A DNA stretch of 64,000 nucleotides from NCBI GenBank assembly GCA_006384855.1, contig VCJN01003436.1:1-64000 (forward strand). Reading direction: 5' to 3'. The notes beneath the pieces are model-generated. The model was not told where the DNA came from. It ran no database searches and saw only the letters and a program-made list of their open reading frames with translations. Each line of letters begins with the position of its first letter. The first letter of the stretch is position 1. This DNA is from Tetraselmis striata (taxonomy: Eukaryota > Chlorophyta > Chlorodendrophyceae > Chlorodendrales > Chlorodendraceae). Shown here one piece after another: positions 2,417 through 32,639 of the stretch. Made by a program: the position numbers and the translations under genes.

Positions 2417-3262
2417 TCATGCAGGGAGGTGGACATGCATCCTCACGGATGGCGCCCATGGGGAAAGAAGACATGACAGGGAAGTGATCGGAGGTGTCCC
2501 AAGAGTAGTCCACCCATGCCGAGGGCGAGAGAGGGGGGGGGGGCTTATGGTGGGAGGCCATGCGATGAAATGGTCGAGAACGCGGCAGCTGCCCCTCCGA
2601 CAAGTACCCCGTTCGCGCGCCGATGCATCCCGCGGCCACATGGGCTTACCGCCGGGAAGGCACCGCCAACGCCTGAGTAGAGCAGTCAACTCCCTTTCAT
2701 CCATGTTCCAATCCCCCCCCACCACGATCATATCCCTCGGATAACTCGTACGAAGCCGCGCCAACTCTTCGCGCAGGCGGTCCCGATACGGTTCCCCCTG
2801 TGAGCCGGTGGGCAAATAGGCCGAGATAAATATAGTGGCCGCGGAGTCACTGCAACCCCCCCCCCCCCCCCCCCCCACCCGGACACAGGTCCAACATGGG
2901 TGGGGCGCGCCGACTGCCCGCGCCCGGTACGGCGACCGGACTAACACACAACACCCACGTTCCGATGCAACGCGGTCCCCGAACGAATAGTAGTCAGAGT
3001 ACCCATTAAAACGCACTCGCATATCGGTCGCCCTAACCGTGGTCTCTTGAACGAGCAGAACATCTACATATCGCTCGATCAGCAGCGCGCCAACATCCTC
3101 CACCTTAGAAGACAACCCATTCACATTAAGCGTCGCAACGCACAGGCAAGGGCATGGGCGGTCATGGGAGGGAAGGGAAAGGGCAAGGGCTGGGAGGGAG
3201 AGAGAGGGCGGGCGGCGTGGCGATCCCAGTACGAGCGGTGTTCCCGCAAGTACCACCCCCAC
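2417..3262 (-). pseudogene. LINE apurinic-like endonuclease domain, frameshifted near its end
   Basis: APE-type endonuclease that would nick target DNA for LINE integration. Visible motifs in order are TLNVNGL, LLVQETT, SAYLPTG, GGDWNM and DHFIAWPP. The final catalytic block, SDHFPV, is present but in another minus frame (segment 2301-2639). The switch falls at an 11-G run at 2533-2543, so a homopolymer indel broke the ORF. A 21-base C run (2856-2876 on the plus strand) lies inside the domain and reads in frame as seven glycines just before CSDSAAT. The upstream minus frame 3558-3121 overlaps its start and may be the end of an ORF1-like region. Confidence 0.8.
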
Positions 3263-14527: not shown

Positions 14528-15790
14528 GTCCAAGCGACATGCAACTACAGGTGGTGCGGCCCTTGTCGCGCGTGTCTCTGGAACCAGCACTATACAAGCA
14601 GCCAGATAATCTAAAGCCAAAACATTCTGCAGGCATACGCACTTTGATACTGTACCAGATGCATATATTGTAATATGGAAGGATGCGCGGAAAGTCGCCC
14701 GTAAAGGCCCACCCTGGCCATCTTGTCCGCGGGTCGACTTCCCACAGTGGCAAACCAATCGGCCTGCCGACATTGCAGGGTTCTTAAATCGAAGCTAGTC
14801 GTGCATATCATGTGTGGAGGAGCCCGGTGCGCTCCGATGTGTTGCGCTCTATGATGTGTTCCCTTGTAGACATTTACTGAATGGGCGTTTCTCACTGGCC
14901 ACTGAGATAGGCGTGGAGCATATCAAACCTAACCTTATGTCCTTCGATGAATTCCAAATGCGCCATCGAACAGTTTTGGGTACAACAGCAGGCCTGCTGG
15001 ATGTGAGCTGGAAGGCATCTGGGGGAAGGTTGGGTTGGAGTTAGGGTTGCTGGTTTTGGGGGGGGGGGGGGGGGGGGGGGGACGACAACAGATTGCTGGG
15101 AAGATGTGATGATGCAAAAGGCCCTCCAACATTAATGGCCACTTATTCATGCTGCACTTCCTCAAAATTTGCGCAGTAGCAGTAAAGATAGAACCATTTC
15201 CAACGGCGGGAAGTATACAGCGCCCAGGAAGGGAGACACAAGGCAGAAGGAAGAGGGGGCAGGTTCCGCCATAGTCATATCTTCCCATACACTCCCAGGT
15301 GAGCCCCGAGCCGTGAACCAGACATGGAGTCAAACCATGGATACGCTCACCCACAAGTCAAGCGCATGAATTCGAGTCCCTAAAAACTTTAAAAGGATCT
15401 GAGGATCTGCTCAGGCAGCAAACCGCGTAGTAACTTAACCATTGATGCAATAAGAGCGCCGTAAAAACCACTACCAATACATATGCCAGCAGGAGTAAAA
15501 AACCATACTGAGTGTATGCATGCATGATCTGTTTATTGAATATAGACACAGCGGCACTGCGTATGCACATTTCTGCTCAGCACGCGGCTACTCAGTGCAC
15601 TTAGCACTGTGCTGCTTGCTGCAAGAACTGGATCACCGCTACTTAAGGGAGATCAAGTAGACGTATGCCCGAGCAGCACTGATTCCTATAAGCAATGCAA
15701 TATTGAAATGGATAAGTAAGGAAGGATATAAATAATATTGTTTCACTGCAATACACTTTCTCTGTTTTCTCTTCCAGTGATGCGCGCCAA
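14528..15790. other. No gene recognised
   Basis: Holds a 25-G run (15058-15082). Nothing else could be supported. Confidence 0.4.
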
Positions 15791-15849
15791 CACACACACA
15801 CACACACACACAAAAACGTGTATGTATATATATATATATATACACACAC
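15791..15849 (+). repeat. (CA)n/(TA)n microsatellite
   Basis: Alternating ca then ta dinucleotides. It sits next to the 3' end of the decayed DIRS copy. Confidence 0.9.
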
Positions 15850-15869
15850 GGCTGCTGTCATATGCTGTT

Positions 15870-17222
15870 TTCATCCATGTGTGGCGCGGCGGCGAAGGCT
15901 TGCGCCAGACTCCGCGCGAATTGAACAGGAAGTCGTCCATGTAGGGGAGCAAGCGGCAGCCGCGGAAGTGACTGCGTACTGTCTGGTGTCGTCCCATGTT
16001 GAGCTTGGGCCGACGCTCTCCGTGGGGGCTTACTGTGAAGTCGGGGCGACGCAGGTGGCGGTTGAACGCGGCAATGGAGGAGGAGAAGTAGTAGGGGCTT
16101 AGGCTCCAGCGCATGGGGTGCCCCGCCAGTCGGTGGAGCTTCCCTCGGTATTCGACGGTGAAGCAGTCTCCGTCCTCGGGAGCAATGTCGATGGCATACA
16201 AGCCATCTTGCATGTCCATGGAGAGCATGCAGTCGCCGAGCCGAGCCAGACGACGCATCCGGGTGAGGGTTACGAAACTCATGTCCCAATCCTGGTTGAG
16301 GGTCGCAAATCGACATTGAGTCGCCACTTGTTCACTACAGGGCACGCGGAAACGGGGATATGCCTACTTTTTATATGGCTACAACATCGATGATTACGAA
16401 ATGCCCCCGAGATAACACGGCTTTCGACAAGAAAGAAAACAGAAAGGCGAATTCTGGCTGTAAAAGGCGATTTTAGAAAAAACGACGGCATGTCAAAATT
16501 GCTCGAGCGTAAATATCCGAATATTTCACGGACCAAACTTAAACAAGTATGATGATTTGTCTTATCCGTGCGCTGTGTGGACACCGGCCTTGGGGACGAG
16601 AGAGAGTCGGGAGACCCACCGCGAGCAGTGGCCTAACTTTCTCACACGCTCCGTTGGCCAAGAAGCGAGCCAGCTCGCCGTCCATGAAGCGTAGCTGGTC
16701 GCGTCCTCCATTGAAACGCTTTGGTGCTGAAAGGGGGCGGGCGCAACGTCCTTCAACGGGATACGCACGCCGGTGCGGATCATGTCAACGACCCTGCGTC
16801 CAGCGCCGATGTCCGCCCATGCCAGTCATTTGCGTCGCACTTGGTGACGCATGTAGGCAGACTCGGAATTGCAAGAGTCGGGACGTGGTCGGGAGGGCGC
16901 ATGTCTGTGCGGCCAACGCGTATGTAGATGTACGCCCTCGCTCAGGGCCCACGTCGACCGCCCTAAGGCGCATGCCCGTAGCGCGTCGGGGCAGTAGTAG
17001 TCGACCGGGCGAGGCGGCCCGTTTGACCACGGCAGTCGAGTCAGCCGCAAAATTGTATTTTGGGTACGGGAACACGGCCAGCGACGAGGTGAAAACATGA
17101 ATCGGCCATCCAGGTTGAGGCGCCGGGCAGTCGGCGCAAAGGTGGAGCCTGATGCATATCGGTGAGGGTACGCAAAGGCAGGGGCCATCAGTACTACTAA
17201 CTCGAGCAGCATGCGCGGTCAT
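15870..17222 (-). pseudogene. Decayed DIRS-type RT copy
   Basis: Minus-strand remnant of the same protein encoded by the element at 25645-28685. In order, segment 17222-16785 ends with a DSCNSESAYMRHQVRRK-like block matching the N-terminal region. Segment 16783-16562 reads RIPLKDVAPAPFQHQSVSM and WVSRLSLVPKAG. Segment 16345-15870 reads NKWRLNVDLRPSTR, DMQDGLYAIDIAPED, HPMRWSLSPYYF and the catalytic LPYMDDFLF. Frames shift between blocks, and similarity stops soon after YMDD. RNase H and methyltransferase parts are missing. About 225 bp is inserted between the VPK and NKWRL blocks. Confidence 0.85.
16338..16562. mobile_element. ~225-bp insertion inside the decayed DIRS RT
   Basis: Interrupts the RT between VPKAG and NKWRL, which are adjacent in the intact copy (VPKPGTNKWRL). 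Its ends look like imperfect inverted repeats: cagggcacgcgga at the left and the reverse complement of ccgtgcgctgtg at the right. Size and ends suggest a MITE. A clear target-site duplication is not visible. Confidence 0.5.
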
Positions 17223-19530: not shown

Positions 19531-21281
19531 ATAGTACCATTACCGAAATTCATCATTACAGATTTCTCAGGTTGGCGCCTTGCTCTTAAGTCTCATCAGC
19601 AACCTATGCAACATAGCAATTGGCATCCACGCTTCCACGAGATTCTGGTCAGCATTTTGGTATTCAACGCTTCCAGGCGGGAATATCTGCGTATGTAGCA
19701 CATCATTGGCAGTTGCAGAGAATTCAACAAGCCGCCATGCGCACATCACGATTACATCACAGAAAATTTATATTCAAGCAGCCATGCATTCAGCCATGTA
19801 CATGCAGCTGCAACCGCAGTGTCTCTATCTTTGCTTTCTTTGCTGCCACCTCGGCGGTGAGTGTCATCGAATCGGGGGGGGGCACCATCAAGCGCCTCCT
19901 TCAAAACTCGGTCATGTCCCAGCCACTGCGCTGCTCGTCTTTAACCTGCTACCAAATTGGAACGATGTGGTTAATGACGCTGGCCTTGAGCTTGTCGGCC
20001 TTCCCCCAAAAGGACTCGGGGGTAGGTAGCGTCTGGCCTGGCTCGAATGGCGGCGCTTTGCTCTGGCGTTCGCCCACCGGATAACTTCGGCAGCCAGCGC
20101 CCTTGTCGTTTCAACTCCAACGCTTTCGACAAGTACTCGGCCTGTGAACCCTCCTGCAAGCCTTGGCCATCTTGAGTTTGCTCCTCGTCGCATTGGGCGA
20201 GTAGTGTCCAGACACGGGCGACAGCCTCAATGGGCGCCCAGTTCGGTACGCCCGCCTTCTTGCCCTTGGCCTTCTTCGAACCAAACCCATCTGCCTAGCC
20301 AGCAGGTTCGGCGGCGCCCGTGCCTGCCTCTTTCTCTCAGTCCGTGGCAGCGTCCGCGGCGCCTCGGGTTGGGAGCGTCTCGCCCAGAGCTGTCGCCTCC
20401 TCTGCACCGGGTGCAGAGCCGGGAGATGCCGGGCCGCCCACTGCCTCCTGCGCCGGCTCCGCCATGGCGGCACCGCCCTACCACTCACGCCCGGTCGCAG
20501 CCCGTTCAGGCCGTTGACTGCCCGTGAGGCAGTCTACATGGCCCTAGGTCGAGCACGAGTGGCGGTATCTGACACGGGCCGGCGCGGGTGGGTGCGGATG
20601 TAGTGTAGTGCGGATGGGCCTCTGCGAGAAAGGGCCAGAAAGCGCGGGCACACCGCATGCGCCTTTTTGGGATTTCGTTTCGGAGAGCGGCACCACCTCC
20701 ATGTAGATCATGGGCCCGATGATGGAGGCGGCGCCGCTCTCCAAAACGGAATCCCCCAAAATTTTGCCCTTTTGGATTATGGAGGTTATGCCGAGTCGGG
20801 GTCCGAGGGCTCCAATCTCCAAAACTTACTGCTTTGGTATCCTAAGCAGGCAACCGCCTTTAATTTGGATATATCGCGTTTTGGAATCTATGCCGAGTGT
20901 GGTAGTTCAATATGGGTGTTGTAGTACGCCCGCAGTACAACGGTCCAGCATGCTCGTGGCTGCTTAGTAAGATGCGTAGATGCGCGCGTCGGATGCGTGC
21001 CACGTGGATTGGCGTGTCGCAGGTGAACGCGCGCAGTCCGCGCTAGGCAGATGGAAACCCCAGCTACTAGTCACGGCTTAATTAAGGATTTGCGGCCCAC
21101 CCACCCACCCACCGCATGGGCGGGCCCGGCGACCGTCCTCGGCCCTCGGAATTGCGGGCCCTTCCTCCACCTCCACCCCCAGCTGGGGATGGGGGCGGGA
21201 TCGTGCACGGGTGGCGCCTTGCGCTTGGTAGCCTTGGCCCCGGCCGCCCGTGCTGCCACTGCCGCGGAGGAGCAGTGTGAG
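19531..21281. other. No gene recognised
   Basis: Overlapping GC-rich frames on both strands at 19900-20530 show no domain. The 20640-20920 part shares short blocks with 17600-17790 in inverse orientation. Confidence 0.4.
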
Positions 21282-22110
21282 CTGGACACCGGCGTCTCAC
21301 GTCGTTGCTGGTCCGGTCAACTCCCCGTTCGTTGTTCTTTGAGCACCCTCTTCCTTCCTGTCCTGTCGGCGCCTCCACATCACATTCGGCCTAGTGCCGC
21401 TATTGGAGTGGCCCGGGATGTTGTGTTGGGAAGGGAGTTCTACGTTTGGCGGAAGGGGATGCGGCCGAGCTGGCGGCGGATTTTGCGCTGGGCGAAACAA
21501 CGCGCGCTGGACACCGGCGTCTTACGTCGTTGCTGGTCCGGTCAACTCCCGTTCGCTGTTCTTTGAGCACCCTCTCCCTTCCTGTCCCGTCGGCGCCTCC
21601 ACATCACATTCGGCCTAGTGCCGCTATTGGAGTGGCCCGGGATGTTGTGTTGGGAAGGAAGTTCTACGTTCGGCGGAAAGGGACGCGACCGAGCCGGCGG
21701 CGGATTTTGCGCTGGGCGGAACAGCGCGCACTGGACACCGGCGTCTTACGTCGTTGCTGGCCCAGTCGACTCTCCATTCCCTACTCGTTGAGCACTCTCT
21801 CCCTTCCTGTCATGTTGGCGCCTCCACAACACATTCGGCTCAGTGCCGCTATTGGAGTGGCCCGGGATGTTGTGCTGTGGAAGGCGTTCTACGTTTGGCA
21901 GAAGGGGACGCAACCGAGCTGGCGGCGGATTTTGCGCTGGGTCTGTTGCACGCCCGTGGCGCCCCGTTCTGGGTTGGACCCCCCCCCACTTCCGCTCCTT
22001 GCTGCGAGACCTCTACTTCGAAGCCCCTTTCATGTCGGCGCCTTCACATTACATTCGGCCTAGTGCCGCTATTGGAGTGGCCCGGGATTATGTGCTGGGG
22101 AGAGCGTCCC
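21282..22110 (+). repeat. Tandem array of ~225-bp units, about 3.7 copies
   Basis: Units start with ctggacaccggcgtctta or a close variant at 21282, 21507 and 21731, giving periods of 225 and 224 bp. A fourth, diverged unit runs from about 21955. Each unit repeats cattcggcctagtgccgcta followed by ttggagtggcccgggat. The plus-strand ORFs across it arise from the repeat and its GC bias. I do not support a coding function. Confidence 0.9.
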
Positions 22111-25644: not shown

Positions 25645-25824
25645 ATGTTCTAAACTAGTTTATGTGGTTTCTCTACCTGTACGAGATAGCCCTGACGCGG
25701 CGCCCGTAGCGCGTGTGTGCGCGCGCACGATTGCGGGGGCCGGTCAGAGCGACCACCTGCCTTCACGGCGGACCGACCGGTCACTCTCCTTTGCTATGGC
25801 ACGCTCCATCGAGCGCACCACAGC
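25645..25824 (+). repeat. A1 repeat of the DIRS/PAT element
   Basis: Starts atgttctaaactagtttatg and runs for 180 bp. It is repeated at 28399-28578 (offset 2754). Just after it, cgcggcaattttgccgcg (about 25832-25849) forms a short perfect hairpin. Confidence 0.95.
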
Positions 25825-26116
25825 AAAGTCGCGGCAATTTTGCCGCGCAGGGTGCCGGTCTTCCGCCATCGTACCATGTACGGTGAGCGACGCCTTTCGG
25901 GGCCCCCCCTGGGAGAAACCCGTTAGGGTTTGTGTGGTTAATGTACGCGCGCCGCTTGCGACGTGCTAACTACTACCCGCGAACGAGCTGCTGATTACTC
26001 GCCCAACGCGAGGAGAGGACGAAGCTGCAGCGCTTCCCCATTCAGTGGAACAAGGTCCAAGACCTTCGACCAGTGTCGACCAACAGTAACCCCTGGCTGC
26101 CCTTTCCCGTGTGGGC

Positions 26117-28372
26117 ATGGCTCGATCTGTACGGGCCCCTACTCGGCGTAGGTGTCGCGATGCGCTCCGATTGGGGCGTATGCCGGCGTATGCCCGTCGT
26201 CTAGTACAGATTCGAGTACAAAGTGACAGTACACTGCCAGTGGCCAAGCCAGCGCCCAGTGGCACATGGCTACTCCCACGCCGCGGCACTCCTACTGTGC
26301 CGCGCACCGTGGACCCTGACGCCGACGCGGAGAGGGCCAGCAGAGCGACAGGGCGCTCTGCTCGCCCCCCTCGCGACATCCATCGCGCCAATTCCTGTAC
26401 TCCCGACTCCCCTTTTATGAGACATCGCGTCCGTCGTAATCTCGGCAACTGGCAAGCCGCTGGCGCAAATCGCAGTGTTCTCAACTGGATATCCCGAGGT
26501 GTACGCGTTCCTTTCTTGGACGGGCTTGCCCCACCTTCTTTTCATCAGGGGGTGTCAATGGGGGATGCTACTCCTGCTCAACTGGAGTTTATGGACGGTG
26601 AATTGGCTCGCTTCCTGGCCGTTGGGGCCTGGGAGCGAGGCTACTGCGCAAAATGGGTGTCCCGGCTGTTCCTGGTTCCTAAGCCTGGAACAAACAAATG
26701 GAGGCTCATCATTGACCTTCGCCCCCTGAACCGCTATTGTGAGACGCGCGATCTTTCGTTTGAGACGCTTTCGCATTTACGCAACCTGGCGCGCCCCGGG
26801 GACTACATGTTACAGATGGACCTGCAAGACGGGTTTTACGCGGTTGGAATCGCCCCTGAGGACAGGGATTTTTTCACTGTCGATTACCGCGGCACTCTGT
26901 ACCGACTGGCTGGCCTTCCCATGGGCTGGTCTCTGTCCCCCTATTACTTCTGCCAATTCACCAACGTCCTCACTAGGGCATTGCGTCGTAACCCGGCTGA
27001 AGCAGATGGCACACCTATTTTCCGGCGACGATTTGGCCTGCGCATGTTGCCCTACATGGACGATTTCCTGTTTCTAGCTCGGACTCAGGCTGAGGCCATC
27101 TGGCAACGTGACTACATCGAACGCCACCTCTCGGGCTTTGGTCTGCTGCGCAACCCCAACAAGGGCGTGTGGGAGCCCACCCAGAAGCTCGTGCACCTGG
27201 GGTTAGAAATTGACACATCGGGGTCACCTACTCTTCGTGCGCCCGCTGAGAAACTCGCCAGCATTGCTCGCGCGGCCAAACGCCTAATCCAACGAGCAAA
27301 ACGCGATCGTCGGTGGTTGCCAGCTCGCGAGTTGGCCGCTCTCGCGGGCAAATGCCAGTTTCTCTACTTGGCCATTGCCCCTGCCCGTTTCTACCTTCGT
27401 GAGCTGCATGATGTGCTCAAGACGCGCGACTCTTGGTCCGGCCGCGTCAAGCTTACCCGCCAGCTCGAGCGCGATCTGCAATGGTGGGTGGGTGTGCCCA
27501 CCCAACACAACGGCCGCCCCATTAACCGCCCCGTCGAAACCGGATACCTACACGTCGACAGTTCGTCTTACGGCTGGGGTGCCGTTTTGAACGAGCACCA
27601 TGAAGCTCGGGGTTTTTGGTATGACGATGACCGCAATGCGCACATTACCCTGAAAGAGCTCAAAGCCGTCCGCCTGGCTATCGAGTCCTTCCTCCCCATG
27701 CTCCAAAACCGCCACATCCGCTTGCACGAGGATAACCAAGCAGTTGTCGGCGTCCTCACTAACCTCACCTCACGCCTCATGGCTGAGCTACGCAAAACGT
27801 GGTACCTCATGGACACGCACGGCATCACCCTTTCCGTGCGCTACATCCGTTCTGCAGCGAATATCTGGGTTGACCGCCTTAGTCGCGAGGTTGATTGCGA
27901 CGACTGGCAGTTCAACCCTCGTCGATTCGCCTCGCTCACTGCTAAATGGGGCGCCTGCACCATCGACCGCTTCGCGACTTCTGAAAACGCCCTCCTGCCC
28001 CGCTACAACGCCCGTTGGCGTGACCCGCGGTGCGAAGCCGTCGACGCCCTGCGCCTCTCCGACGCTGCATGGCGTTGCGAACGTAACTGGTGTAACCCTC
28101 CGTGGAACCTCATCGGCGATCTAGTCTCCAAACTTGAGTCCAGCGGTGCCCCAGCCATCGTTATTGTTCCCTACTGGCCTGACAAAGCTTGGTACCAGCT
28201 CCTCTCGGAGATGTGCTCCGACATGCGCTCTTGGAAGCCGCGCCACGACCTCTTCATTCCTGGCCGTACCGGCGACCGCCTTCCTGTGGGCGCACCCCAC
28301 TGGCCTGTCGTCGCCTTCAACATTCCCGCCCGTGACCCCCGCCCGTGGCCTGCTGCGCCCGGCATTTTCTAG
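26117..28372 (+). CDS. DIRS-type polyprotein: reverse transcriptase, RNase H, DNA-methyltransferase-like domain
   Basis: Uninterrupted ORF of about 751 residues. The first ATG is at 26117; a GTG lies two codons upstream. The N-terminal ~120 residues are basic and unassigned. The RT spans about residues 160-400, with KWRLIIDLRPLN, DLQDGFYAVGI, LPMGWSLSPYYF and the catalytic YMDD at 313-316. RNase H follows (about 470-600): HVDSSSYGWGAVL with Asp near 481, an ELKAV glutamate and EDNQ with Asp near 539. The C-terminal third contains DRFATSENAL and NPPW at 660-663, the motif set of the N6-adenine methyltransferase-like domain typical of DIRS elements. It would copy element RNA into DNA. The ORF is intact, unlike the minus-strand relative at 15870-17222, so this copy is young. 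It ends at the TAG directly before repeat B1. Confidence 0.92.
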   Translation: MARSVRAPTRRRCRDALRLGRMPAYARRLVQIRVQSDSTLPVAKPAPSGTWLLPRRGTPTVPRTVDPDADAERASRATGRSARPPRDIHRANSCTPDSPFMRHRVRRNLGNWQAAGANRSVLNWISRGVRVPFLDGLAPPSFHQGVSMGDATPAQLEFMDGELARFLAVGAWERGYCAKWVSRLFLVPKPGTNKWRLIIDLRPLNRYCETRDLSFETLSHLRNLARPGDYMLQMDLQDGFYAVGIAPEDRDFFTVDYRGTLYRLAGLPMGWSLSPYYFCQFTNVLTRALRRNPAEADGTPIFRRRFGLRMLPYMDDFLFLARTQAEAIWQRDYIERHLSGFGLLRNPNKGVWEPTQKLVHLGLEIDTSGSPTLRAPAEKLASIARAAKRLIQRAKRDRRWLPARELAALAGKCQFLYLAIAPARFYLRELHDVLKTRDSWSGRVKLTRQLERDLQWWVGVPTQHNGRPINRPVETGYLHVDSSSYGWGAVLNEHHEARGFWYDDDRNAHITLKELKAVRLAIESFLPMLQNRHIRLHEDNQAVVGVLTNLTSRLMAELRKTWYLMDTHGITLSVRYIRSAANIWVDRLSREVDCDDWQFNPRRFASLTAKWGACTIDRFATSENALLPRYNARWRDPRCEAVDALRLSDAAWRCERNWCNPPWNLIGDLVSKLESSGAPAIVIVPYWPDKAWYQLLSEMCSDMRSWKPRHDLFIPGRTGDRLPVGAPHWPVVAFNIPARDPRPWPAAPGIF

Positions 28373-28399
28373 TCGGCAAACCAGACGATCCTTGTGAAA
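28373..28399 (+). repeat. B1 repeat of the DIRS/PAT element
   Basis: 27 bp beginning tcggcaaaccagacgatcc, identical to B2 at 28659-28685. It begins immediately after the ORF stop codon. Confidence 0.93.
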
Positions 28400-28578
28400 T
28401 GTTCTAAACTAGTTTATGTGGTTTCTCTACCTGTACGAGATAGCCCTGACGCGGCGCCCGTAGCGCGTGTGTGCGCGCGCACGATTGCGGGGGCCGGTCA
28501 GAGCGACCACCTGCCTTCACGGCGGACCGACCGGTCACTCTCCTTTGCTGTGGCACGCTCCATCGAGCGCACCACAGC
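28399..28578 (+). repeat. A2 repeat of the DIRS/PAT element
   Basis: Second copy of A1, with one visible difference. It is followed by about 80 bp (28579-28658) before B2. Confidence 0.95.
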
Positions 28579-28658
28579 CCGCCCAACCCTCCCTGGCTGT
28601 GGGATCGTATGCCTGCAAATTCCTGAATTTCACAACCTGTAACCAGACCTGGCATTCT

Positions 28659-28685
28659 TCGGCAAACCAGACGATCCTTGTGAAA
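28659..28685 (+). repeat. B2 repeat, right end of the DIRS/PAT element
   Basis: Identical to B1 over 27 bp. It marks the right boundary of the element by analogy with PAT-class elements. Confidence 0.9.
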
Positions 28686-30028: not shown

Positions 30029-30703
30029 ATGCGACCCCCTAAGCCCGGCAAGGGCAAGAAAAAGATCAAAACAACGGATGAGGGCGGTCGTGGGAAGTAC
30101 AAGAAGTACACGAGCGCCGACATGGTGAATGCCGTGAGCGCTGTTGTGAACGGAACGCACTCGTTCCGCGCTGCCGTGCAGAGCTTCCGCGTACCGAAGA
30201 CCAGCCTCCAGCGCAACGTCGCAACCGCTAGGAAGGCTCGTTCGATGACCTCGTTTTCCAACCTTGTTATCTTCACCGAAGAGGAGGAGGCGCAGATGGT
30301 TGCTGCTATCATTCGTCGGGGGAAGGCAGCGTTGCCGTGGACTGTTAAGGCCCTGCGACGCAAGGTGCTGGAGGTCGTAAAATATTGCTCGCTCGCCATC
30401 AAGACTGACCGACAACAAAATATCATCCAAGGCTGGATCCGCCGTGGCAGTGCTGGCAAGGACTGGTTTCGAGCATTCTTGAATCGACACAGGGACGAAC
30501 TTTCAGTCCGTTGCTCCGACAAACTGGAGCGCAAGCGCTGGATGGTGACCTGGAAGTCGGCGTGCAGCACTTACGAAATTCTGAGGGCCCTGAAGGTTGA
30601 GTTCCCGGGACTTCACCCTGCCCTATTGATGAATCTTGATGAGACATCGTTTAGGCCAGACGGCCGTGCGCAGCTGCGATCCCTGGCTCATCAATTGGCT
30701 TGA
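30029..30703 (+). pseudogene. Pogo-type transposase N-terminal part (psq/CENP-B HTH and first DDE residue)
   Basis: 224-residue frame. After a basic start (PGKGKKKIKT) comes a psq-type helix-turn-helix (about residues 30-70: YTSADMVNAVSAVVNG, then VPKTSLQR). A CENP-B-like HTH follows (about 85-160), ending AGKDWFRAFLNRHRDELSVR. Then comes the start of the DDE domain, LMNLDETSF, with the first catalytic Asp. The frame stops at 30703. The next transposase block, LPPHSSHFSQPLD, lies in another frame from about 30740. Roughly 70-90 residues normally found between NLDETSF and that block, including the second catalytic Asp, are absent. A deletion with a frame change near 30660-30690 explains both facts. 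Confidence 0.85.
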
Positions 30704-32639
30704 CACTGAGCACAACGTCAAGACCCTCGGCTTGCCCCCGCACAGCAGCCATTTTTCCCAGCCCCTGGATCTCGAATCCAACGCTGAGATTAGCCGGACA
30801 TTTACAGTTGTAGCGGAGGCCCGCCTGGAGGCCTCAGGAGCTAAGGAGCTAACCGAGTCAGAATGCATATCGCTACTATGTTCCAAGTCCACCCTGCTCA
30901 AGGCCACTGTAACCGATTCTTATGGCAACAAGCTCGTCATCCCCGCATGCTCGCCCTGGGAGAAGGCAGTGTCCAAGGAGCGCAACCGTCGCAGTTTCGA
31001 GCGGGCCGGGTACCCAAACGGAGACACGCGCCAGTGGGACGTCAACCCTGAGGCAATACGCAACAAGGTGTACCAGACAATCAAAGAGCAGAAAGAGGGC
31101 GGCGCCATTGCAGCAGTCAACACCATCGCGCAAACCGAGGGCGCCGCCGAGCCGGAGACTGCGATTGAATCGATTCTGGACAGCAACGTCACTGGTATAC
31201 CCAGCGATCCTCTTCAGCTCCTCGCGCATGTTGTATGTGTCAGCGGGCTGCCTGATGTGAAGAGTGCTGCAGTGAAACGCACCTATCAACAGATCATGCA
31301 CCACCAACGAGAGACAGAGCGCCTTCGCCAGGAGCTGATTGTGCAGAATTTACCTGAGCACCCGCCCATCTGCGAGGTGCTGGCGCTTACGCCAGACAAG
31401 GACAAGTGTTCCAAGCGTTACAAGATGCCTGGGCGCCGTCGCATCATGGGCGAGGACGCCCAAATGCTTTGCGGCGAAAGAGCCATGCGCGCTCTGTTCA
31501 CGAAATGGCTAAAGAAGACTGTTGGGCATGCCTTGAGGAGGTGGAGGGCTATGGCCAAGGAGACGGCGCGTCACAAGTTGGCGCAAGAGCGAGCACGAGA
31601 CAAGGAGCACCACGCCAGGCGCATGGCTCAGAAGGCCGCCATCCGTGTGCAGGTGAAGGCACGCGCTGAGATGGAGAAGCGGCGGGCGGCAGCCGCTGCA
31701 AAAGCTGAAAAGGCTGCACGCCAAGCTGAGAGGAAACGTGCAGAGGCAGCCGCCAGGCGCGTTGCAGCTGCTGCCAAAGCTGCTGCAAAGAACAAGGCTT
31801 TGCTGGAGAAGGAGGATGAGAAGCTCCGCCAGGCCGCGCAGAAGGAGGCGCGCGCAACCGATGCAATCACCGAGCAGCAAGAAGTCCTCGATGGCCTTCA
31901 AGCATCCATGGCGTTGGCAACAGAGCATACCCAGAACACCACTGAGGTAAGGAGCGCCTTATATATGGATTGTTGCCTACATGGAGAATAACAAGGTAGT
32001 GAGAAATAACATGGTTTTCATCTTTGCCAGGTGGAGCTCGAGCATGCCAGACAACACCGCATAAGCCAGGTCAGCGCAGACACTGCAGCTGCAAAGAAAG
32101 CCTTGCAAAAGCTGCAGGCAGCAGCAGCCCGGGCGTCGAAGTGTTACCTCGCTCTCCTTCAGAAAATTGAGGCTGCCCGGGCAAGTCGGGAGCCACCACC
32201 GCCAGAATCCGGCCCACAGCCACTTCAACAGCCTGCCATGTCCTCTCCATACGCCTCGAGTCGTGAGACTGAAGGCCGCCGTGGGCAGCGGGCGCGGCTC
32301 AGATCGGTCATCGTTCAGGTGGAAACCCCGCCTACCTCCCCGTCAGCAATCAGCCCCGACAGCTTCGGACCGAGACCATGCCCCTACTACTCCCCGTCTC
32401 CGATGCAAGGAGGTACCCTGTCCTCATATCAGGGCAGCGACAGGGGGCGCTGGGGAGACGACGAAGAAACATCCCCATCGCAAGATGCAACCCCGATGCC
32501 TGCCCGTCAGGTCGTCGTCCCGTACCGGTACTGGACCGGCACCGAGGACCAAACCGACTGGCCAAGCCCGTACGAGGCCAGCCCCCAGCACCCCTCAGCT
32601 GAAACAGAAGATTATTTTTGGGACTCTGACGAATTTTAG
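30636..32639 (+). CDS. Pogo-type transposase C-terminal part with Ala/Lys-rich coiled coil (two exons)
   Basis: Open frame 30636-31946 joined to 32031-32639 by an 84-nt phase-0 intron (31947-32030, gtaagg...tttgccag). After the end of the DDE domain (GLPPHSSHFSQPLD) it has about 150 residues of mixed sequence, a PGRRRIMGEDAQMLCG block, and a long Lys/Arg/Ala/Glu-rich stretch predicted to form a coiled coil (about 31520-31900). Exon 2 continues the coil, then turns Pro/Ser-rich and acidic, ending EDYFWDSDEF. The stop is at 32637-32639. The start is uncertain: either the ATG at 30636 or, before the deletion, the upstream transposase start. The long intact tail behind a dead catalytic core could be transposase C-terminus that has not yet decayed, or a retained protein. 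Sequence alone does not decide. Confidence 0.6.
31947..32030 (+). other. Intron in the pogo-type transposase gene
   Basis: GT-AG, 84 nt, phase 0: CCACTGAG/gtaagg to ttgccag/GTGGAGCTCG. Both flanking frames are open and the charged coiled-coil composition continues across it. Confidence 0.75.

Follow-up and report, generated by a model that had tools for sequence, protein, structure and literature searches.

A PAT-like tyrosine recombinase retrotransposon of Tetraselmis striata that seems to live as two partner elements

In the model for their movement, tyrosine recombinase (YR) elements with split direct repeats are reverse transcribed, form a circle with one B/A junction and are inserted by the YR. 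The PAT-like elements of the order DIRS, among them PAT, TOC and Kangaroo, have the arrangement A1 - genes - B1 A2 B2 and a reverse transcriptase (RT) with RNase H (RH), they can carry a methyltransferase (MT), and they insert without target duplication. In the published descriptions at hand, Gag, RT-RH(-MT) and YR reside in one element. For YR retrotransposons in general, the available text of PMC4157794 proposes a composite ancestor in which an LTR-type element and a Crypton were joined; the published RT and YR trees seem incongruent there. The element described here shares with the PAT-like elements the split repeats, an RT with RNase H and the insertion without target duplication, and it probably has a methyltransferase, but the gene set is divided between two elements. 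Thus, a mobile element usually found as a single unit seems to exist here as two partners.

The RT element was located at positions 25645-28685 of the window, which is the whole analysed stretch of 64,000 nucleotides of contig VCJN01003436.1 of Tetraselmis striata (Table 1). The initial annotation had described a compact unit of about 3.0 kb with complete split repeats, one intact ORF and no recombinase gene, and our analysis bore this out. The plan A1 - single ORF - B1 A2 B2 was confirmed over a total size of ~3.0 kb, A1 and A2 differed by one mismatch over 180 nt, and the ORF was open over its full 753 aa. B1 and B2 were identical (27 nt). Between the repeats, no Pfam recombinase model matched, and tblastn with YR and gag proteins as queries yielded chance-level matches only (best E 1.3). 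The ORF was affiliated by Pfam to RVT_1 (E 8e-17) and RT RNase H (E 2.3e-5); a third, probable Dam-like methyltransferase domain gave a weak match under the curated cut-off, with E 0.0068 for the whole protein and 5e-4 for the C-terminal fragment. The gag-like ORF of the partner element described below had no match in the RT element. An unrelated gag without homology may be present, though no constraint is visible on codons 1-101, which precede the RT and have 13 nonsynonymous (N) and 4 synonymous (S) variants. Because of this lack of constraint, the protein probably starts at the internal methionine given in Table 1 and comprises 651 aa.

Table 1. Features of the RT element, in positions of the window
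Feature	Positions	Strand	Evidence
A1 repeat, left terminus; starts (A)TGTTCTAAACTAGTTTATGTGG	25645..25824	+	repeat comparison
ORF, mechanically called, 753 aa; supported coding part from Met 26417	26111..28372	+	
Reverse transcriptase domain (RVT_1)	26675..27202	+	YMDD at 27053-27064; Pfam
RNase H domain	27545..27766	+	Pfam
Probable Dam-like methyltransferase domain	27893..28198	+	Pfam, below curated cut-off
B1 repeat, immediately 3' of the stop codon	28373..28399	+	
B1/A2 junction, the recombination core common with the gag-YR partner; includes the palindrome TAAACTAGTTTA	28396..28425	+	
A2 repeat, 180 nt	28399..28578	+	
B2 repeat, right end of the RT element	28659..28685	+	

Further copies were sought in the same genome, which comprises 224 Mb on 2903 contigs. 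A 149-aa rbcL piece of this assembly was most similar to rubisco of the green type (form IB), with the Chlamydomonas entry 1gk8 near the top, so that a green alga is the likely host; a 5.8S copy is present as well. Thirty-two of the 45 scored DNA matches, the window copy included, spanned the query from base 1 or 2 to base 3041 with an identity of 98-100 %, far above chance. In a protein search, 36 of the best 60 of 4775 candidates lacked a stop codon, and 31 of these extended over residues 1-753. A 191-aa RT query returned, among the best 150 of 2703 candidates, mostly identities of 92-100 % with a tail down to 81 %. With 150 scored RT matches, the family exceeds 100 copies. These lists were ranked by similarity and therefore favour intact copies. 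Thirty-one distinct loci were read with their flanks (L004 and L009-L038; L001-L003 and L005-L008 coincide with members of this set). A complete A1-ORF-B1-A2-B2 arrangement was present in 27 of them, while a repeat was missing or broken in L017, L021, L025 and L030. The count of copies lacking a recombinase, suggested earlier, came to all 31: neither gag nor YR was present between A1 and B2 in any locus read. The window copy is therefore not a unique deletion among full-length relatives, as the 27 complete loci have the same gene content. Similarity to gag or YR was detected in the flanks of five loci (L013, L018, L019, L033, L038), and in L018 a neighbouring gag-YR element adjoins the RT copy. 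By coordinates, contig C306 holds an RT dimer with a common A repeat. A diverged RT is located on C2442.

Selection on the ORF was studied in an alignment of 30 copies, from which L030 was dropped as partial; single-base variants were counted and three multi-base codon changes set aside. Variants common to at least two copies were mainly synonymous (N 7, S 31, pN/pS 0.10), and single-copy variants comprised N 62 and S 62 (pN/pS 0.44), with four stops. L004 had a frameshift, and four copies had one stop each. Purifying selection has acted on the RT ORF across several generations of the element. The copies are recent: over 179 positions, A1 and A2 differed at no position in 16 of 24 copies, at one in seven and at six in a single copy. 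This count excludes L018 (mis-set A1), L025 (A1 interrupted) as well as L034 and L036 (length changes), and L017, L021 and L030 gave no row in the repeat and flank comparison. Conversion may have homogenised A1 and A2. At the right end, the element terminates with GAA; in the 28 rows compared, the next base is A, and after it comes T in 20 rows and C in eight. With the boundary first chosen, none of the 28 rows, including the mis-set row of L018, had a target duplication of at least 3 nt. A test with 27 copies (L018 excluded) over lengths of 3-6 nt and 49 boundary choices, of which the best four per length were listed, revealed no clear excess over random pairing: the largest count was 5 at 3 nt versus 5.9 expected, and at 5 nt a single match faced an expectation of 0.15.

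A likely lender of the lacking functions was found in a second element of ~3.2 kb with the order A1 - gag-like ORF - tyrosine recombinase ORF - B1 A2 B2. A search with PF00589 gave seven matches among the best 150 of 1091 candidates. Judged by the ORFs, four of them lie in bacterial-looking DNA, and the remaining three belong to one other family. The YR family of the partner has at least 150 copies (best 150 of 5221 candidates), 128 of which have no stop codon in the aligned part; for gag, the best 149 of 5374 candidates included 141 without a stop. Nine partner loci were read (L046-L051, L053-L055). All nine had protein matches to both the gag-like ORF and the YR, weak ones in L055, and none held an RT, the best match being at chance level (E 3.6). 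The length was 3148-3255 nt in the seven loci with both ends traced. In six of the nine loci, two copies each of the A repeat of ~190 nt and of the B repeat of 25-26 nt were found; L048 had lost B2, and in L055 A1 was not found. The identity of A1 and A2 was 87.6-98.4 % in six loci; by this measure, the A1/A2 pairs of the gag-YR copies compared predate those of the RT element.

PF02899, a SAM-like domain, matched the recombinase of L050 with E 3e-8. Against PF00589, this recombinase reached 17.1 bits, under the cut-off of 27.1; two other copies were just above it. The C-terminus aligned weakly to Cre (E 0.004) across HSxR, GGW and the tyrosine, which we take to be the catalytic residues of Cre, and the partner YR is Cre-like by this alignment. 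Pairwise dN/dS values were 0.14-0.34 for the YR (6 pairs of 4 stop-free ORFs) and 0.12-0.36 for gag (6 pairs of 4; L046, L047, L049 and L054 were dropped for stops in the stretch and L055 was left out). Both ORFs of the partner are under selection. As no Pfam gag family matched the first ORF, the sole match being at chance level (E 0.12), the name gag-like derives from its position and size only. Contig C2249 holds gag-YR units in tandem with a spacing of 2916-2918 nt. Such tandem units of circle size, the gag units of C2249 and the RT dimer of C306, agree with a circle or recombination step.

The two elements are linked by a shared recombination core. Blastn aligned the RT and the gag-YR element over 48 nt at 85 % identity across B1/A2 and over 27 nt at 93 % at A1, and beyond the core it found no convincing similarity. 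The best ungapped score of the core was 25, and none of 200 dinucleotide shuffles exceeded 17. The pattern GAAATGNTCTAAACTAGTTTATGNGGTTTC had 942 exact matches genome-wide and none when reversed. The exact RT-type core accounted for 124 of these, leaving 818; the counts take in at least one A1 start (C165:222788), perhaps others. Among 100 core matches listed, 11 were of RT type, 85 of the common gag-YR type and four of other forms. The commonest RT core and the commonest gag-YR core differ at 2 of 30 positions.

Thirteen non-RT-type junctions were inspected, with L053-L055 taken as loci and the other ten as pieces of 601 nt: 12 had a YR upstream, and L063 showed no more than a terminal remnant, past which other DNA follows. 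These ten pieces, YR-type junctions taken regardless of content and nine of them with a YR upstream, revealed no third partner gene set. On the contigs covered by the listed junctions, all 11 gag matches were located 1744-1748 nt upstream of a shared junction, a distance that leaves room for the YR ORF only. Of 15 YR matches on covered contigs, six were 186-189 nt upstream of a shared junction, seven had no junction within 8 kb and two only a distant one. Many YR copies thus have a changed core, as nine of the 15 lack the exact core at the expected place. For RT matches on covered contigs, an RT-type junction lay exactly 27 nt past the ORF match in 34 of 49 cases; 11 had no exact junction and four had one at 92, 376, 5645 and 5655 nt. 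This RT comparison drew on 100 listed junctions of exact RT type, less the A1 start C165:222788.

In the loci read, each element thus lacks the genes that the other carries, and the common core and the selection on three ORFs accompany these complementary anatomies. We read the RT element, with a probability of roughly 0.7, as one of two halves of a PAT-like YR retrotransposon, the one that holds the RT; the halves would complement each other in trans. The RT element would supply RT, RNase H and probably the methyltransferase, and the gag-YR element the gag-like protein and the Cre-like YR. The RT would copy the RNAs of both elements, and the gag-like protein would package both RNAs. The internal B1/A2 junction would permit the rebuilding of a full circle with one B/A core, and the YR of the partner would act on the circles of the RT element as on its own, integrating both via the common core without target duplication. 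Several observations weigh against this reading: the gag-like ORF has no Pfam gag match, the PF00589 score of L050 is below the cut-off, some RT and YR matches lack an exact core at the expected place, the commonest cores of the two elements differ at two positions, the A1/A2 pairs of the two elements differ in age, and the pairing is known from a single genome. The earlier idea of a minimal RT-RH-MT lineage that borrows its recombinase gained support from the more than 100 copies, the selected ORF and a likely lender with a matching core. This idea has to be extended, in that gag too is absent from the RT element and the lender appears to carry it. A stronger version, for which we see about even odds, is a stable multipartite retrotransposon: the RT-RH-MT and gag-YR segments, with 124 versus 818 exact cores, would be obligate mutual partners with a common core, perhaps a common packaging signal too, and three ORFs selected in trans, like a segmented virus genome.

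Dependence could run one way only, if the gag-YR element were an autonomous Crypton-like DNA transposon with a circle and its own YR, from which the RT element borrows. In the available parts of PMC4157794 and PMC3212892, YR elements that have no RT, Cryptons included, fall under the DNA YREs, and the partner resembles them in carrying a YR and no RT in all nine loci; the tandem gag-YR units of C2249 further suggest recombination at circle size, for which RT is not required. However, Cryptons as described in the accessible text of PMC3212892 have only short terminal repeats of 4-6 bp, whereas the partner has long split direct repeats of ~190 nt plus 25-26 nt. Its additional conserved ORF, located where gag is expected, likewise sets it apart from Cryptons, and the hundreds of copies of its core speak for replicative movement. 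We consider this explanation unlikely. Slightly lower in our estimate stands a full-length DIRS element outside the sample that would combine gag, RT and YR and drive both observed elements as its non-autonomous derivatives. Older RT families are present in the genome and were read in part, and a rare element with both RT and YR may escape genome searches that score the best candidates. Yet such derivatives would not need RT and YR ORFs under selection, and by coordinates none of the best 150 YR and 149 gag matches was inside any of 60 RT elements. The search for full-length relatives carrying a recombinase, which the initial annotation had proposed, returned no element with both RT and YR among the sampled copies. 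Two RT copies, on C1006 and C1208, have their junction about 5.65 kb away and were candidates for full-length elements. C1006, at a distance of 5655, was read as a candidate for a combined RT and YR element and rejected: its far side consists of the RT C-terminus and the junction, at 99.5 % identity over 200 nt, so the copy holds an insertion into an RT element rather than a YR tail.

The other possibility raised at the outset, that the RT element arose recently by deletion from a canonical PAT element and is a mere passenger, fared poorly, and we regard it as very improbable. A size of 3.0 kb and the absence of a YR are indeed the expected outcome of a deletion. Against it, 36 of the best 60 copies are stop-free in the ORF match, in a list that favours intact copies, and the excess of synonymous over nonsynonymous common variants (31 versus 7) is unexpected for a passenger; no parent with RT and YR was present among the sampled copies. 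An assembly artefact or a contamination is hardly credible. The assembly does contain bacterial-looking contigs (L039-L042), but the RT element is spread over numerous loci that differ in contig and flanking sequence, and the number of distinct flanks refutes this explanation. The pairing of RT and gag-YR elements was seen in one genome; outside relatives were found neither in viral contigs (protein and pattern searches) nor in prokaryote contigs (pattern search only). Likewise, by title and start of abstract, the literature searched contained no pair of an RT-only and a gag-YR-only element, with Poulter and Butler 2015 and Repbase outside the scope of this search.

A bipartite PAT-like retrotransposon would be a living pair with its modules on separate elements and a common core, which would make modular exchange directly testable. 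The pair also raises the question how trans-complementation stays stable against cheaters, in mobile elements as in segmented genomes. With regard to classification, own YR and own Gag are defining features of PAT, and neither was found in the RT element; we therefore do not class it as a PAT member. It is a variant of the DIRS/PAT kind that seems to work like half of such an element.

To our knowledge, no recombinase is involved in the HeT-A/TART system of Drosophila. HeT-A with TART is, as far as its published account extends, the nearest conceptual case to the RT and gag-YR pair. For these two retrotransposons a symbiotic sharing of Gag and Pol has been proposed; HeT-A has no pol, and the Pol of TART is the proposed source, in the available text of PMC4467039. 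The same text describes both as non-LTR telomeric elements, in difference to the pair described here, and TART has its own Gag and its own Pol, so that the exchange is less strictly complementary. Ngaro elements are similar in structure: Cafeteria Ngaros have the arrangement A1-[ORFs]-B1A2B2 and the gene set gag, RT-RH and YR, and some types have lost ORF1, according to the excerpted PMC8547959. In the description available from PMC3266345, Ngaros combine RT and YR in one element of ~6 kb and have no methyltransferase, whereas the RT element lacks a YR and has a probable methyltransferase. SIRE shares a terminal sequence with the coding element VIPER, as the core is shared here, but in the consulted section of PMC6681497 it is a short truncated version of VIPER, whereas both partners of T. 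striata keep selected ORFs.

In the Tetraselmis striata assembly, the RT element, which encodes reverse transcriptase, RNase H and a probable methyltransferase, adjoins the separate gag-YR element (gag-like and tyrosine recombinase ORFs) in the same orientation on three contigs, C292, C2096 and C1267. The gap between the two elements is about 0.3 kb on C292, and was estimated from coordinates as about 0.2 and 1 kb on the other two contigs. A stretch flanking one gag-YR element (L050:306-614) was distantly similar to the methyltransferase region of the RT ORF (28 %, E 6e-6).

Units of the gag-YR element form a tandem array at C2249:48318-62269 with a gag-to-gag spacing of 2916-2918 nt, a value falling inside the range of A1-to-A2 distances of the gag-YR loci read. 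The four strongest matches of the assembly to PF00589, the Pfam model of tyrosine recombinases, were all located in bacterial-looking DNA (L039-L042), thus bacterial contigs seem to be present in the assembly. At another locus, a 5.8S rRNA copy (L052:1501-1654) had exon-like stretches of a protein gene on both sides, and apparently lies inside an intron of that gene.

Further features of the window
Position	Strand	Feature
15746-17045	minus	degraded piece of another, older DIRS-type RT
21266-22107		tandem copies, unit about 224 nt
30029-31991		two ORFs in different frames, adjoining the RT element

The older DIRS-type RT shared about 33-50 % identity, in pieces, with the RT of the element at 25645-28685. 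Its better-matching further copies in the genome reached 55-71 %, and many were broken. Six RT-like matches spaced 4.01-4.02 kb apart at C2237:8160-28547 apparently mark a related RT element repeated in tandem. The first of the two adjoining ORFs gave a weak match, just under the cut-off, to the Psq helix-turn-helix, a type of domain found in pogo-type transposons.
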